From a bacterium (GTDB taxonomy: Bacteria > DYJV01 > JALVYZ01), in contig JALVYZ010000445.1 in NCBI GenBank assembly GCA_027037705.1, forward strand, positions 1 through 6,111: a stretch of 6,111 bases of DNA, given 5' to 3'. The notes under the pieces were generated by a model. That model searched no databases and had not been told where the DNA came from. It was given only the letters and a program-made list of their open reading frames with translations. Numbering within the stretch: position 1 is the first letter of the stretch; every line of letters starts with the position of its first letter. Below are positions 1 to 6,111 of this stretch, one piece after another. The translations under genes were made by a program, and so were the position numbers.

Positions 1-473
1 TCAATTTCCCTGGGACTTAGAATATTATCAACTTTTTCATTTTCATTATTTGAAAAATAAATTTTTTGGAAAATTGGTATGGATTCTAATGAGGATGAAA
101 CAAATTTTTTTCCTGACTTAACCATTTTTATTGCATCTATCAATAATTCAAAACTATCCTCTTTTAACATATAACCACATGCACCTGCTTTAAACGAATT
201 TATTACAAAGAAAGGATCAGCATGCATTGATATCACTAAAATATTTATTTTCGGTTTGTATTTTTTAATTCTTTTAATTACTTCTATTCCATTTAATTCT
301 GGCATTGTTATATCAATTAGAGCTACATCTGGATTTAACTTTAAAATTTTGTCAATTGTTTCTTGTCCAGATGATGCTTCGCCTATTATCTCAATATCAT
401 TTGATTTTTTTAAAAGGGATATTAATCCATCTCTGAATAATTTGTGGTCATCTGCGACAAAAACCTTTATCAT
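1..473 (-). CDS. NarL/FixJ-family (LuxR-type) response regulator, C-terminus cut by window edge
   Basis: The first 157 residues of a two-component response regulator are present and the frame is open to the window edge. The receiver domain (about residues 1-120) has all its key positions: acidic pocket D8-D9, phosphoacceptor D54 in LIDITMPELNG, the Thr/Ser switch position S82 and the invariant K104 in GYMLKED. After a linker, LSPREI at about 152-157 matches the usual start of the GerE/LuxR helix-turn-helix, so this is a DNA-binding NarL/FixJ-type protein, normally about 210 residues. The DNA-binding helices lie outside the window. Its ATG shares one base with the kinase stop (TAATG), and AGAGGA at 480-485 gives it its own ribosome binding site at 6-base spacing. 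It is the presumed partner of the adjacent kinase. Family assignment is firm; the target genes are inference. Confidence 0.95.
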   Translation of the reverse strand, partial: MIKVFVADDHKLFRDGLISLLKKSNDIEIIGEASSGQETIDKILKLNPDVALIDITMPELNGIEVIKRIKKYKPKINILVISMHADPFFVINSFKAGACGYMLKEDSFELLIDAIKMVKSGKKFVSSSLESIPIFQKIYFSNNENEKVDNILSPREI

Positions 474-2275
474 TAATTGTCCTCTTTGTTATAAATCTCA
501 ATTATTACTCTTGTTCCATTTCCATGTTGGGATTCAATAATAAACTGGCCATTCATGTCTTGAACCCATTCTTTAATGCTGAATAATCCTATACCATTTA
601 TTTTGCTTTGTTTAAACACTTCTTCAGGTTCAAATCCGATTCCATCATCATCTATAATTAATCTTACCTTGTCTTGATTTATAACAATGGATATTATAAC
701 TTCTTTGGCTTTTGCATGTTTCCATACATTATTCATAATTTCTTTAAACGCCCTAAATATATATATTTCTTTTGCTTTTGAGATCTTTAAATCAGATTTT
801 ATATTTTTGTTTAATGTAACTTTTATATTTGTCTTTTCAACATATATTGGGATATACCATTCTATTGCATCAATTAATCCATGTTTATATAAAACAGCAG
901 GGTAAAGTTCAAAAATTGTATTCCTTATTCTTGAAATTATCTTTGTTGTAAGTTCTTCTAAATTTTTAAAATCTTCAGTTGTATCAACACATTTTTTTTC
1001 TTGAATTTCTTTTAATTTAAATTTTAGATAAGCTATATCTTGAGCAAGTTCTTCATGAATAAATTCTCCAATTTTTCTCCTCTCTTTTTCTTCTAAAAGG
1101 GTTATCTCTTCTCTTAATCTTTTTTTAAATTCATCAGATTCTTTTAATTTTCTAATCATGCTATTAAATGTTTCACAAAATTTTCCAAATTCATCATTTG
1201 AAAAAACAGGAACTTTAACATTTAAATTTCCATTTTTTACTAATTCTGCTTTTTCTGTTAATTCTTTTAATGGTTTTACAAATTTTAAGGCAAAAATGAT
1301 TGCAGGGAAAAAGCAAAAAAGAGTCATCACAAGAATTAGAATTATAATATGTTTAAAATATGTCTGAGACTCAGGGAAAAATGAATTATATCGTATTGAA
1401 TGAGCAATATACCAAAATCTATAAGGTGAGAGTTTAACTTTTTTATATACAATTATCTTTAAGGAAGAAAGTATGCCTTTTTTTTCTATAATTGCACCAT
1501 AATCTTTGCCTAAAAACTTGGTTAAATTTAATTTATACTGTTTTTTATTATGAAACATAAAAGAGAAAGTTTTTTTAAAGTCTGGATGATAAAGATAATA
1601 TCCATTTTTATTAATTAAAAAATAGTCTCCAAAATTTTGTTTTTGTCTATTACTTAAAATTTTTAAAATTTCGCAACCAAGCACATTTAAAACAAGATAT
1701 CCTTTTTTATTCCCAAATATGTCATATACTGGTGTTACATATCTAATAACAGGTTTAAAAGGTATTTCTATTTTATTATTTTCAATATTCAAATCTAATG
1801 GAGAAATATATATTTCATTTTTATGAAGTTTTTTGGCTTCCTGAAAATAGTATCTTTGGCCTTTGTATTGTAATTTATTTTTGGGAACAATAATACTGTA
1901 ATTGTTTTTATAATTTATTCTTAAAATTTCAAAACCATTTAAATCAAGAAACCTTATTTGATCATAAATCTTATGGGTATTCGCAACTGTTATAAAACTT
2001 TCAAGAACTCTTTTTCTTAAATAAAAAAGAGGCGAATTTAAATAATCTTTAAAATCTGGTAGATTTTTTATTAGGTCTATATCTCTTATAATCCATTTAT
2101 GTAGATCTAAAATTTCTTTTTCTGCAAGACTTAAATCATTTAAGGCAATTCTTTCAATTTTTTTTATAAAAAAGTTCCGCTGGAAATAATATTCATGAAC
2201 TGCTGTGATGATAATTGAACCAGCGGAAATAATAAAAAAAACAAATAGAAATTTGTTTTTTAAATCAAGTTTCAT
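473..2275 (-). CDS. Membrane sensor histidine kinase, Cache-HAMP-HisKA_3-HATPase (NarX/DegS type)
   Basis: This 600-residue inner-membrane kinase passes a periplasmic signal to the adjacent regulator. TM1 is at about residues 8-26. A long periplasmic region (about 30-305) looks like a double Cache domain, with RYVTPVYDIFGNKKGYLVLN near 179-197 and a second part with YFLINKNGYYLYHPD. TM2 is at about 308-332, followed by HAMP at about 330-385. The HisKA_3 dimerisation domain carries EEKERRKIGEFIHEELAQ, with H407 as the phosphoacceptor. The ATPase domain has its N box near 512-520 (E512, N516), DDDGIGF at 542-548 and GIGL at 561-564. Its ATG lies inside the stop of the upstream HMA gene (ATGA). 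The bases before it form an A/T run without a Shine-Dalgarno sequence, unlike every other gene here. No ATG occurs in frame until residue 240, and starting there would lose TM1 and most of the Cache region, so this start is favoured. The ligand is unknown. Confidence 0.96.
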   Translation of the reverse strand: MKLDLKNKFLFVFFIISAGSIIITAVHEYYFQRNFFIKKIERIALNDLSLAEKEILDLHKWIIRDIDLIKNLPDFKDYLNSPLFYLRKRVLESFITVANTHKIYDQIRFLDLNGFEILRINYKNNYSIIVPKNKLQYKGQRYYFQEAKKLHKNEIYISPLDLNIENNKIEIPFKPVIRYVTPVYDIFGNKKGYLVLNVLGCEILKILSNRQKQNFGDYFLINKNGYYLYHPDFKKTFSFMFHNKKQYKLNLTKFLGKDYGAIIEKKGILSSLKIIVYKKVKLSPYRFWYIAHSIRYNSFFPESQTYFKHIIILILVMTLFCFFPAIIFALKFVKPLKELTEKAELVKNGNLNVKVPVFSNDEFGKFCETFNSMIRKLKESDEFKKRLREEITLLEEKERRKIGEFIHEELAQDIAYLKFKLKEIQEKKCVDTTEDFKNLEELTTKIISRIRNTIFELYPAVLYKHGLIDAIEWYIPIYVEKTNIKVTLNKNIKSDLKISKAKEIYIFRAFKEIMNNVWKHAKAKEVIISIVINQDKVRLIIDDDGIGFEPEEVFKQSKINGIGLFSIKEWVQDMNGQFIIESQHGNGTRVIIEIYNKEDN

Positions 2276-2290
2276 TTTTTATTATTAATA
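2272..2290 (-). promoter_or_regulatory. ATGA coupling junction without Shine-Dalgarno before the kinase
   Basis: The terminal TGA of the HMA gene (2272-2274) overlaps the kinase ATG (2273-2275). The preceding bases on the coding strand are ATTAATAATAAAAA, with no purine-rich ribosome binding site at normal distance. The other six genes in the window for which a start is visible, apart from this one, all have a GAGG/AGGAG-like site at 5 to 7 bases. This layout is typical of translational coupling, in which ribosomes finishing the upstream gene re-initiate on the next. Confidence 0.65.
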
Positions 2291-2559
2291 ACATGAGCCT
2301 TATACCCAGCTTTTTCAAGAGCAATTAAAATCTGTTGCAAAGAAACTTTAGAATCATCATATTTAATATAAGCTTCTTTTTGAGGGACTGAAGTATTAAC
2401 TACTTCTACTCCATCTAAACTTTTAAGAGTTGAACTAACTCTATAAGCTGTACCAGGTCATGTTATCCCTGGAACTTTTAACAGAATATTCTTATCAGCT
2501 GCAAACATCATAGCTGAAAATAAAAATACAAAAATTGTTAAAAGTAAAAATTTTTTCAT
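2272..2559 (-). CDS. Exported HMA/MerP-like small protein with predicted selenocysteine (in-frame TGA at codon 34)
   Basis: This frame encodes 95 residues if the TGA at 2458-2460 is read as selenocysteine; a standard ORF caller would miss it. Residues 1-21 form a signal peptide (MKKFLLLTIFVFLFSAMMFA, cleavage near A20/A21), so the mature protein is periplasmic. The remainder is one heavy-metal-associated (HMA) domain: LLKVPGIT-U34-PGTAYRV is the metal-loop helix, followed by LDGVEVV, AYIKYDD, and LEKAGYKAHVI at the end, matching MerP and copper-chaperone folds. U34 sits where the first Cys of GMTCxxC belongs, and the second Cys is Thr37. AGGAGG at 2565-2570 precedes ATG by 5 bases. The final TGA overlaps the kinase ATG. 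Role: binding or sensing of a soft metal or metalloid, or selenol redox chemistry, is inferred. The alternatives are a Cys codon misread by sequencing or a nonsense-mutated pseudogene; the intact downstream frame and SECIS-like hairpin argue against the latter. Confidence 0.85.
2423..2446 (-). promoter_or_regulatory. Candidate bacterial SECIS hairpin downstream of the Sec UGA
   Basis: In the mRNA, AGAGUU pairs with AACUCU (six base pairs) around the loop AGUUC. The stem continues past a single bulged U with three more pairs (AUU with UAA). The loop begins 21 nt after the UGA and has a G among its first two bases. This fits the general description of bacterial SECIS elements (hairpin inside the coding region just after UGA, G near the start of a small loop). 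The bulged U and loop recall the E. coli fdhF element. The pairing was found by eye and no folding energy was calculated. Its role would be recruitment of SelB with Sec-tRNA. Confidence 0.7.
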
Positions 2560-2587
2560 AAGATCCTCCTTTAATTTAATTTGATAA

Positions 2588-2688: not shown

Positions 2689-3303
2689 ATGAATAGAAAT
2701 GTTAAATTATGGTTGTTTATAACTGTTCCTCTTTGTTGTCTTTTAGTAATTGTATTTATTGTTAGTGGTTTTACCTTTAAAAGTCCAGTTCCCCCAGCAA
2801 AACCTTTAAGTTCAAAATGGTATATCCCTGAGACTCCAAGAGAAAATATTATTGAAAATGAAGTTGTTGTGGGGAATTGCTGGATTTGTCATGCGATGTG
2901 GGTCCCGATCCCAGATCCAAATGTTATTAGACCAATTGGAGCACATCCTGAAGTTATATTGAAACATGGTAAAAATAAAAGATGTTATAATTGTCATATG
3001 ATAACTGATAGAAGTAGGTACACATCAGATGATGGTAAGGGGTTGTTGTATACAAATGTAGCCCAGTTATGTGGGAGATGCCATGGTATTGTTTACAGAA
3101 ACTGGTTAAATGGAACTCATGGAGTCAATAGAGGAAAATGGGCTCCTAAAAAACCTTTTGATGTTACAAAATTTCAATGCAATTACTGTCATGATCCTCA
3201 TCAGCCAAAATATAAATTCAGACATATGGCTCCTCCACCAACCTGGGATAAAAAGTTTATAAGAACAAAAAAGGTTGAAATTTTTAAAGAAGGAGAAATG
3301 TAA
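2689..3303 (+). CDS. Membrane-anchored tetraheme cytochrome c
   Basis: This 204-residue protein carries electrons between a membrane quinol-oxidising module and periplasmic partners. An uncleaved-looking N-terminal helix (about residues 7-28) precedes a periplasmic domain with four CxxCH heme sites: C64-H68 (CWICH), C99-H103 (CYNCH), C128-H132 (CGRCH) and C164-H168 (CNYCH). Histidines H86, H93, H144, H171 and H179 are candidate distal ligands. The last site sits in CNYCHDPHQPKY, a pattern common in NapC/NrfH and NrfB-like cytochromes. GAGGAG at 2678-2683 lies 5 bases before the ATG. The stop overlaps the start of the Fe-S gene (TAATG). Its place before Fe-S and NrfD genes is like DsrJ in DsrJOP, but DsrJ is a triheme protein, so that name is not applied. 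A multiheme cytochrome is certain; the exact family is not. Confidence 0.93.
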   Translation: MNRNVKLWLFITVPLCCLLVIVFIVSGFTFKSPVPPAKPLSSKWYIPETPRENIIENEVVVGNCWICHAMWVPIPDPNVIRPIGAHPEVILKHGKNKRCYNCHMITDRSRYTSDDGKGLLYTNVAQLCGRCHGIVYRNWLNGTHGVNRGKWAPKKPFDVTKFQCNYCHDPHQPKYKFRHMAPPPTWDKKFIRTKKVEIFKEGEM

Positions 3304-4229
3304 TGGGAGATAATAAAAATAAACTTTCAAGAAGAGAGTTTTTGACTGCTGCTGGGATAGGGGCAGCAACATGTGTTGCTTCTGCGGCTGCTATTTCTCC
3401 ATTATTAAAACTTACTAACAAATTTTCTTTAGAAGAATTTTTACAGAAAAATTATAGAGAACTAACTCCCGAAGATAAAAAAAGGATATTTAAAAGATTA
3501 GAAAGAGAAATATCAAAAAAATATGGTGTTAAAGCAAAAATTTCAGATCCCCCTCCATTAAAAGGTGTTAAATATGCGATGGTTATAAATGTTGGTAGAT
3601 GTATTGGTTGTAGAAAATGTGTTTATGCATGTATGAAAGAGAATAACAATTCAAGAAGTCCTCAAGTCCAATATATTCGTGTAATGAGAATGGAAAAAGG
3701 AAAAATTGATTTAGAAACAGCAGTTCATGATTATCCTGAAAGTGAAGCTGGCCAAACTGACAAGTACTGGTATATGCCAGTTCAATGTCATCAATGTGAA
3801 GATCCTCCTTGTGTAAAGGTTTGTCCAGTTAGTGCAACATGGAAAGAACCTGATGGTATAGTTGTAGTTGATTATAATTGGTGTATTGGATGTAGGTACT
3901 GTCTTGCTGCATGTCCATATTATGGAAGAAGATTTAATTGGGCAGAACCTCAGATTCCTAAAAATGAATTAAATCCAGATATGGCATATCTTTCTAATAG
4001 ACCAAGATATAAAGGTAATGCTGAAAAATGTACATTTTGTCTACAACGGACAAGAAATGGCAGATATACTGCATGTGTTGAAGCTTGCCCTACAGGAGCA
4101 AGAAAATTTGGAAATCTTTTAGATGCAGAGAGTGAAGTCAGGAAGATAATAGATAAAGAAAGAGTTTTTATTTTGAAAGAAGAATTAAATACAATTCCAA
4201 AGATGTATTATGTTTTTAGCAAAGCATAA
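3303..4229 (+). CDS. Tat-exported ferredoxin-like subunit with four [4Fe-4S] sites (NrfC/DsrO/HybA type)
   Basis: This 308-residue periplasmic electron-transfer subunit has a twin-arginine signal, SRREFL at residues 9-14, followed by a small-residue hydrophobic stretch to about 36. Sixteen cysteines form four cluster motifs: C100/103/106/110, C162/165/170/174 (CHQCEDPPCVKVC), C194/197/200/204 (CIGCRYCLAAC) and C243/246/258/262 (CTFC with CVEACP). This is the usual pattern of NrfC, DsrO, HybA, PsrB and DmsB-like proteins, which pair with an NrfD-type membrane subunit, the next gene here. AGGAG at 3291-3295 is 7 bases before the ATG, which shares one base with the cytochrome stop. The protein would take electrons from the NrfD quinol site and pass them to the cytochromes. 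No molybdopterin subunit is visible in the window. Confidence 0.95.
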   Translation: MGDNKNKLSRREFLTAAGIGAATCVASAAAISPLLKLTNKFSLEEFLQKNYRELTPEDKKRIFKRLEREISKKYGVKAKISDPPPLKGVKYAMVINVGRCIGCRKCVYACMKENNNSRSPQVQYIRVMRMEKGKIDLETAVHDYPESEAGQTDKYWYMPVQCHQCEDPPCVKVCPVSATWKEPDGIVVVDYNWCIGCRYCLAACPYYGRRFNWAEPQIPKNELNPDMAYLSNRPRYKGNAEKCTFCLQRTRNGRYTACVEACPTGARKFGNLLDAESEVRKIIDKERVFILKEELNTIPKMYYVFSKA

Positions 4230-4240
4230 TGGAGGAATAA

Positions 4241-5434
4241 ATGATAAATTTAATATCAAAATTTACAAAAGTTTTAATCAATGGAAATAAATACTATATT
4301 TTATGGGTAACATTTCTTTTAGTATTAGTCTTGATTGGTCTTCATGCATATTCTCGTCAGTTAATTTATGGATTGTATACTACAGGTATGGGAGATGAAG
4401 TATCATGGGGATTTTATATTGCAAATTTTGCATTTTTAGTTGGAATGGCAGCTGCTGCTGTAATGATTGTTATCCCTGTTTATATCTTTAAAGATAAAGA
4501 TGTTAAAAAAATTGTTATTTTTGCAGAACTTTTTGCAATTGCAGCTGTTATTATGTGCTTAAGTTTTGTTTTAATTGACTTAGGAAGAATTGATAGAATG
4601 TGGCATTTAATTCCAATAATTGGAATTTTTCACTGGCCAGAATCAATGTTAACATGGGATGTTATAGTTTTAAATGGTTATCTTTTCATAAATATTTTTG
4701 TATGTTTCTATTTTTTGTATAAAAAATACCACAATCAAGAGCCAAAAACATGGATTTATTTATCAGTAGTATTTCTATCAATTATCTGGGCTCCAAGTAT
4801 TCATACAGTTACGGCATTTTTATTCCAAGGGCTTGGTGGTAGACCTTTCTGGCATTCACCATTAATTGCTCCAAGATTTTTATCATCAGCTTTTTCAGCT
4901 GGCCCTGCTTTTATTTTAATTGTTTTAATTTTATTAGATAAATTTAAAGCAATTCATATATCTGAACATACCATAAAAAGAATTAGACAGATAGTAACAA
5001 TATGTCTTTTGATAAATATTTTTTTCTTCTTTTCAGAGGTATTTGCAGATTTATATATGCCAACTTCTCATTCAATAAATCTTGCATTCCTTTTGGGAGT
5101 TAAAGGAAAATCAATTTTAACTCCATGGATAAGATTATCTGTGGCTCTTTCAATTATTGCAGCAATTATGTTTTTAACACCAAAATTAATGAAAAATAAT
5201 GTTTTCGTAGTAATAGCATGTATACTTACTGATATTGGAATATGGCTTGAAAAAGGACTTGGATTTGTAATTCCTGGATTTATTCCAACTCCATTAGGAG
5301 ATTTTGTTCAATATAAACCAACTTTTAATGAAGTTTTAATCACAATTTCAGTTTGGGCAGGTGGTTTATTATTATATACTATTCTTGTTAAAATTGCTTT
5401 ACCAATTATTAATGGGGAAATCAGAAAAGAATAA
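4241..5434 (+). CDS. NrfD/DsrP/HybB-family integral membrane quinol-oxidising subunit
   Basis: This 397-residue polytopic protein has about ten hydrophobic helices (near 18-36, 57-82, 91-113, 139-161, 170-190, 208-232, 247-270, 293-314, 320-336, 366-390). Recognisable family features are WGFYIANFAFLVG at 56-68, LGRIDRMWHLIP at 114-125, the HWPESMLTWDV segment, LIAPRFLSSAFSAGPA near 208-223 and WLEKGLGFVIPGFIPTPLG near 335-353. These resemble DsrP/HybB-like members more than the shorter NrfD of nitrite reduction. Such proteins bind menaquinol and pass electrons to a partner Fe-S protein, here the gene 11 bases upstream. GGAGG at 4231-4235 sits 5 bases before the ATG. The family is certain; the direction of electron flow (quinol oxidation toward the cytochromes) is inferred from context. 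Confidence 0.94.
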   Translation: MINLISKFTKVLINGNKYYILWVTFLLVLVLIGLHAYSRQLIYGLYTTGMGDEVSWGFYIANFAFLVGMAAAAVMIVIPVYIFKDKDVKKIVIFAELFAIAAVIMCLSFVLIDLGRIDRMWHLIPIIGIFHWPESMLTWDVIVLNGYLFINIFVCFYFLYKKYHNQEPKTWIYLSVVFLSIIWAPSIHTVTAFLFQGLGGRPFWHSPLIAPRFLSSAFSAGPAFILIVLILLDKFKAIHISEHTIKRIRQIVTICLLINIFFFFSEVFADLYMPTSHSINLAFLLGVKGKSILTPWIRLSVALSIIAAIMFLTPKLMKNNVFVVIACILTDIGIWLEKGLGFVIPGFIPTPLGDFVQYKPTFNEVLITISVWAGGLLLYTILVKIALPIINGEIRKE

Positions 5435-5468
5435 TGAAGGGAGGTGAAATTTTAAAGCTAAATCACAG

Positions 5469-5486
5469 GTTAAATTTATATTTAAC
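5469..5486 (+). repeat. Short perfect hairpin between the NrfD and cytochrome genes
   Basis: GTTAAAT and ATTTAAC form a perfect 7-base inverted repeat around the 4-base loop TTAT, in the 75-base gap between two operon genes. It is A/T-rich with no following T-run, so it does not look like an intrinsic terminator. It might affect mRNA processing or be chance in AT-rich DNA. The rest of the gap (5435-5509) holds a Shine-Dalgarno-like GGGAGGTG at 5439-5446 with no standard start codon at proper distance. Confidence 0.4.
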
Positions 5487-5509
5487 AGAAAATAATTGAG
5501 GAGGGAGGT

Positions 5510-6111
5510 ATGAAGCCTAAGTTTTTTATTTTATTTTTTGCATTACTATTTCTGGCATTTACTACTTCAGTTTATGCTCAGGGGAGTGGCTGTACCACAG
5601 CAAAATGTCATAAAGGAATTGAAAATATTATGCCAGAAAAGTCTCAAATGATGATTGCTATTAAAAATAATGGAAGAATGCATGGAGACCCTGACGGATG
5701 TGTTGTCTGTCATGGAGGAAATCCTCAGGAAACAAAAGACAAAAATAAAGCTCACATGGGAGTCCCTGCAACATTGAGAATTGCTCCTGGACCTAAAGAT
5801 TTTTATCCTGACCCAGGTTCAATCTGGATTGCTCAAAACACATGTGGTGTTTGTCACGTAGGGTATGTTTATAGAATGCAACTTGCATTAATGAATACTG
5901 AAGCAGGTAAAATTCAGGGGAACCTGCATACATTTGGTTTTAAAGAAACTCAATTCTATAAAGTTCCTTATGGAAATCATAATGTTAAAGATTTAGATGG
6001 GCTAACTCCAATGGTTGGCTCTCAAACCTATAAGATGTATATGAAACAGCAGATTAATATGTATCCTTTTGCATATCCTAAAGAATTGAAAAAGCTTCCA
6101 TTACCAACTGT
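5510..6111 (+). CDS. Exported multiheme cytochrome c, C-terminus cut by window edge
   Basis: The first 200 residues of a periplasmic cytochrome are present. A signal peptide (about 1-23, ending SVYA) is followed by three heme-binding motifs: an expanded C28-x4-C33-H34 (CTTAKCH), C64-x2-C67-H68 (CVVCH) and C112-x2-C115-H116 (CGVCH). H58, H82, H140 and H157 are possible distal ligands. CX4CH sites are known in cytochrome c3-type proteins. The section after residue 117 (TEAGKIQGNLHTFG and beyond) lacks further heme sites up to the window end, so more hemes or a catalytic section may follow. GGAGG at 5500-5504 lies 5 bases before the ATG. As the last visible gene of the operon it is the likely electron exit or terminal reductase of the module. 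I do not recognise the exact family. Confidence 0.88.
   Translation, partial: MKPKFFILFFALLFLAFTTSVYAQGSGCTTAKCHKGIENIMPEKSQMMIAIKNNGRMHGDPDGCVVCHGGNPQETKDKNKAHMGVPATLRIAPGPKDFYPDPGSIWIAQNTCGVCHVGYVYRMQLALMNTEAGKIQGNLHTFGFKETQFYKVPYGNHNVKDLDGLTPMVGSQTYKMYMKQQINMYPFAYPKELKKLPLPT

Follow-up and report, generated by a model that had tools for sequence, protein, structure and literature searches.

The window (the whole stretch of 6,111 nucleotides that was analysed) carries on its minus strand a predicted selenoprotein gene that opens an operon and is followed downstream by genes for a sensor histidine kinase and then a response regulator. The features needed here are the following, in window coordinates unless another contig is named:

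2565 to 2570, minus strand: Shine-Dalgarno AGGAGG of the selenoprotein gene (duplex −11.7 kcal/mol)
2272 to 2559, minus strand: HMA/MerP-like selenoprotein gene (95 aa), ending in TGA at 2274-2272
2500 to 2559, minus strand: predicted signal peptide, residues 1-20, judged from sequence
2458 to 2460, minus strand: in-frame UGA (U34), its column also TGA in three further genomes
2426 to 2442, minus strand: bSECIS hairpin AGAGUU-AGUUC-AACUCU, its loop 21 nt from the UGA
473 to 2275, minus strand: sensor histidine kinase (HK sensor/dCache, HAMP and HATPase), 600 aa
3 to 473, minus strand: response regulator, truncated at the end of the contig
1859 to 2947 of L078 (contig C202 of the same genome): SelD, whose HASGUAAK contains an in-frame TGA; no clear Shine-Dalgarno

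Upstream of the selenoprotein-gene ATG (2559) lies AAAGGAGG, which contains a strong Shine-Dalgarno. The frame has only one internal TGA, codon 34 (2460-2458), and standard annotation would miss the gene because the open frame is cut there. The coordinates, the ATG, the AGGAGG, the signal peptide, the TGA at codon 34 and the HMA frame had all been given correctly in a preliminary description of this DNA; the strand, which it left unstated, is minus, and the overlap of the histidine kinase with the selenoprotein gene is an addition to it.

With TGA read as U, the product is MKKFLLLTIFVFLFSAMMFAADKNILLKVPGITUPGTAYRVSSTLKSLDGVEVVNTSVPQKEAYIKYDDSKVSLQQILIALEKAGYKAHVINNKK. Residues 27-87, which span the TGA, match Pfam HMA (PF00403; E 2e-10, 41.4 bits compared with a gathering cut-off of 24.8), and a profile built from the collected HMA proteins matched the solved structures of MerP (1afi, 1osd) and CopZ. 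As judged from sequence profiles, the predicted fold is HMA (ferredoxin-like, MerP/CopZ-type). In the alignment, U34 occupies the column of the first ligand Cys of the HMA CxxC loop, as the preliminary description had proposed. The GMTCxxC loop that it invoked, however, is not present: the window loop reads VPGITUPGTA, and Thr37 takes the second ligand position, which gives the motif UPGT (UxxT). The related idea of a simple exchange of Cys for Sec at a metal site therefore holds for the ligand column at which Sec stands, but not for the second ligand Cys, which is missing. The window protein contains no Cys at all, and U34 is its sole thiol or selenol.

Among 386 genomes, the top match besides the window was a protein of G215, again with one TGA, and G244 and G391 encode two further proteins of the same type. 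Their loops, with TGA as U, are VPGITUPGTAYRV (window), VPGCVUPGTAARV (G215) and VPGVVUGSTAARA (G244 and G391), so that V29, P30, G31, U34, T37, A38 and R40 (VPG..U..TA.R) are invariant in the four UxxT proteins. These span three phylum-level sets (that of the window, that of G215, and that of G244 and G391), and the matches listed included no UxxT-type protein with Cys in place of Sec. The TGA falls in the same column in G215, G244 and G391, not at the random stop positions that the preliminary description had associated with a decaying gene. When G244 was compared with G391 over the 58 codons after the TGA, pN was 0.20 and pS 0.59; this stretch is thus translated in these relatives, and its sequence is under purifying selection. 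In a tree built without the two motif columns, the four UxxT proteins fell on one side of a branch with weak support (52/80). No relatives of the window selenoprotein were found in the viral contigs searched, a scan of genome contigs gave only CP070719.1 (apparently the same genome as G244), and the 84-genome phylum of G317 yielded no further UxxT member (E 1e-12; a search with no positive control there). In G391 (L073 3900-3905, minus strand), the UxxT gene has a second in-frame TGA directly after its apparent start (ATG TGA AAA), which may reflect a misplaced start, an assembly error or something else.

Other HMA selenoproteins carry UxxC (G317, G108 and G386) or UxxU (G074, G344, G049 and G363). 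G138 has two with a UPFTU motif (loop UPFTUP, two Sec each; L059, about 5478-6250, minus strand), one joined to a MerT-like membrane segment and the other encoded just upstream of a MerA/glutathione-reductase-like flavoprotein. In G365 and G098 (L052 5919-6179; L061), an HMA protein with CEKUP (CxxU) lies near an all-Cys paralogue, the two making a Cys/Sec pair in one genome. Scores against the NF041115 model ranged from 68 to 95 bits for the UxxU and UxxC proteins (three scanned) and from 23 to 55 bits for the four UxxT proteins.

The published bSECIS model has a loop of 3-9 nt with G in the first two positions and a stem of 4-16 bp, 16-37 nt from the UGA, with an MFE of −7.5 or lower (PMC13188914). 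The window hairpin lies within these limits (loop AGUUC, 6 bp, 21 nt; MFE of UGA plus 60 nt, −8.4), and is the weakest of the four UxxT genes, at −3.8 kcal/mol alone. Since 132 of 2,000 dinucleotide shuffles of the window stretch attained the same hairpin energy, it is modest evidence when taken by itself, and conservation carries the argument. All four UxxT genes have the hairpin in one and the same codon register, with 87.5% of cells paired and four pairs altered on both sides; the covariation score (0.646) was reached in none of 500 shuffles. Pairing falls to 38-53% when the alignment is slid by 1-3 columns. Among 175 registers, that of the hairpin has the most compensatory changes and ties for the most paired cells, the tied register being this hairpin with its loop widened. 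As it comes from only four sequences, of which two are closely related, this covariation is good but not large evidence. Comparable hairpins are rare: at any allowed spacing, an equally stable one follows 74 of the 2,188 TGA trinucleotides on the scanned contigs of the window's genome, and an equally strong one with a GG/GU loop at a spacing of 20-24 follows 18 of the 2,188, a background whose contigs overlap slightly and which includes the true sites. Similar hairpins also lie 3′ of the TGAs of other HMA selenoproteins and of SelD. An Rfam search at the selenoprotein gene gave nothing convincing, and a near-palindrome around the TGA (CCAGG...CCTGG) is probably due to chance (z −1.43).

The window's own genome (G000) is a draft of 2.05 Mb in 496 contigs, 92.8% complete. 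It contains tRNA-Sec (SelC; 82.3 bits), called tRNA-SeC(tca) by ARAGORN, and a SelD (345 bits) with its own internal TGA within HASGUAAK, where SelD proteins usually have Sec or Cys. SelB is present as a fragment (model positions 187-580) that ends at a contig edge. Thus, of the four genes selA to selD for which the preliminary description had proposed to search, selC, selD and a contig-end piece of selB were recovered; SelA, searched with two models, was absent from the matches in this draft. It was found in G001, another genome of the same order (511 bits), and its absence from G000 is probably a gap that results from genome incompleteness. That a contig gap beside selB accounts for the missing selA is unsupported, as G001 shows no recognised selB beside its selA.

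Could the in-frame TGA be something other than a Sec codon? A single in-frame stop in a draft of 496 contigs might be a base-call error (TGC or TGT read as TGA) or the mark of a decaying or truncated MerP gene. This is very improbable, and was rejected, given that the TGA column is kept in three more genomes from two other phyla, the SECIS hairpin covaries, the relatives show signs of selection after the TGA, and SelD of the same genome has a Sec codon of its own. Readthrough of the TGA would equally be expected if UGA were reassigned throughout the genome to another amino acid. But the selenoprotein gene itself terminates at TGA, no in-frame TGA occurs in the other window genes or in those for EF-G, EF-Tu and NusG, and the other internal TGA is the Sec site of SelD, in a genome with tRNA-Sec(tca). 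In the contigs examined, no tRNA-Trp or tRNA-Gly had the anticodon TCA, and no conserved genes with many in-frame TGAs were found. Reassignment was rejected as well, and is the more improbable of the two. The TGA at codon 34 exceeds chance, on account of both its recurrence in one column and the rarity of comparable hairpins. Hence, on the evidence of the conserved column, the SECIS covariation and the Sec machinery recovered, the claim of a real selenoprotein that standard annotation loses stands, and the window gene is almost certainly a genuine selenoprotein gene.

The start of the kinase gene overlaps the stop of the selenoprotein gene (ATGA) and has no Shine-Dalgarno (duplex +1.0 kcal/mol, compared with −5.8 to −12.1 for the other six window genes); a missing Shine-Dalgarno is not unique to the kinase, as SelD elsewhere in the genome likewise has none. 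Because of the overlap and the missing Shine-Dalgarno, synthesis of the kinase may depend on Sec insertion through termination-reinitiation, in which case only ribosomes that had read the UGA as Sec would go on to translate it. A selenium-gated two-component system of this kind, in which the selenoprotein would serve the kinase as periplasmic ligand receptor and also gate its synthesis, is rather unlikely. That the selenoprotein is simply a partner of the downstream kinase is somewhat more probable, though still less likely than not, and the idea is weakened because the kinase neighbour is not common to the other three UxxT loci (G215, G244 and G391), where it was sought and not found. In G215, the UxxT gene adjoins an AhpC/TSA gene that likewise contains an in-frame TGA (RGKWUTYCN); this gene (L051 4420-5076, plus strand) is divergent to the UxxT gene and has a SECIS-like hairpin. 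In G244 and G391, the gene before the UxxT gene encodes a DUF3192-like lipoprotein, and a DUF4197 gene lies close by. Not one neighbour is common to all four UxxT loci.

Divergent to the selenoprotein operon, at 2689-6109 on the plus strand of the window, lies an operon with genes for a multihaem cytochrome, DsrO-like and DsrP-like proteins and another cytochrome. The DsrO-like Fe-S protein scores 190 bits against a cut-off of 200, the DsrP-like NrfD protein exceeds its own (369.6 against 350), and the second cytochrome weakly resembles ExtM. This operon possibly encodes a respiratory complex under control of the kinase pair.

What might a lone Sec do on this fold? Metal binding by the HMA fold is usually attributed to a pair of soft ligands. 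The genome's own machinery would insert Sec at the UGA, directed by the hairpin just 3′ of it. After export, the U34 selenolate, predicted to sit in an exposed loop beside Thr37, would be the only soft ligand or nucleophile of the mature protein. It would probably bind a soft metal or metalloid, or reactive sulfur or selenium species, and a small thiol, another protomer or a partner could complete the one-ligand site. In this genome, the protein may in addition assist, from the periplasm, the sensor kinase whose gene comes next in the operon. As a whole, this account (an exported HMA selenoprotein with a UPGT loop, Sec inserted via the bSECIS, putatively a soft-ligand binder and maybe a kinase accessory) is likely to be right; within it, we lean only slightly towards soft-ligand binding rather than catalysis. 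Because Sec plus Thr makes a poor two-coordinate metal site, a redox role is possible. U34 and Thr37 could form a one-Sec peroxidase, a thiol reductase or a persulfide or selenide carrier on an HMA scaffold, a notion favoured by the absence of a second thiol, by the UxxT motif of GPx-like and OsmC-like selenoproteins (PMC13188914), and by the AhpC/TSA neighbour with in-frame TGA in G215. That neighbourhood is a single case, however, the window has neither a resolving Cys nor an adjoining reductase, and the known members of the HMA fold are metal-binding; a redox selenoprotein is the less probable reading, though one to be taken seriously.

Sec-containing HMA/MerP proteins as such are already known (UxxU, UxxC and MerT-CopZ fusions), and the UxxT subgroup, which scores below the cut-offs of these families, is a new variant of them. 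The preliminary description had mentioned such relatives, and the literature bears it out: MerP is among the Sec-containing families of the GOS survey, with two sequences in its table (PMC2398784), and a 2026 census lists NF041115 UxxU, MerT and P-type ATPase selenoprotein entries (PMC13188914). By a term search of the census text, UxxT there denotes GPx-like, OsmC-like, Grx-like and (as UxxC/T) DUF3179 proteins, and a UxxT HMA protein does not appear (PMC13188914). The metal-binding HMA fold thus gains a subgroup with Sec in every case, from four genomes in three phyla. That one Sec is kept while the second cysteine is dropped raises the question of the role of a lone selenolate in this fold, and the operon suggests a coupling of selenium supply to a signalling system.

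Compared with known systems, the window protein resembles MerP (TIGR02052, periplasmic, Hg(II)-binding) in having a signal peptide and one HMA domain. MerP is its best NCBIfam match (56.7 bits, alignment 1-90 of 92; below the cut-off of 92.55), but has the two-ligand CxxC loop GMTCxxC in place of VPGITUPGT, and the window lacks the merT and merA neighbours of the MerP system. The Sec-containing MerP of the GOS survey is similar in being MerP-like with Sec, its table entry giving no motif (PMC2398784). The thioredoxin-like VPGUxxT selenoprotein NF041383 (PMC13188914) shares a VPG near Sec and the UxxT motif; its U directly follows VPG, whereas the window protein has an HMA domain and does not match that model. 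The MerT/CopZ fusion heavy metal transport selenoprotein NF045683 also has an HMA domain with Sec, but fused to a membrane domain, whereas the window protein is predicted to be free-standing and exported (23.2 bits compared with 375); the MerT-like fusion of G138 carries the related UPFTU loop and has no NCBIfam match at E 1e-20. NF041115 (UxxU_metal_bind) is, like the window protein, a small HMA selenoprotein with Sec at the first ligand position, from which the window protein (54.5 bits; cut-off, 95) differs in having Thr, rather than Sec or Cys, as the second.
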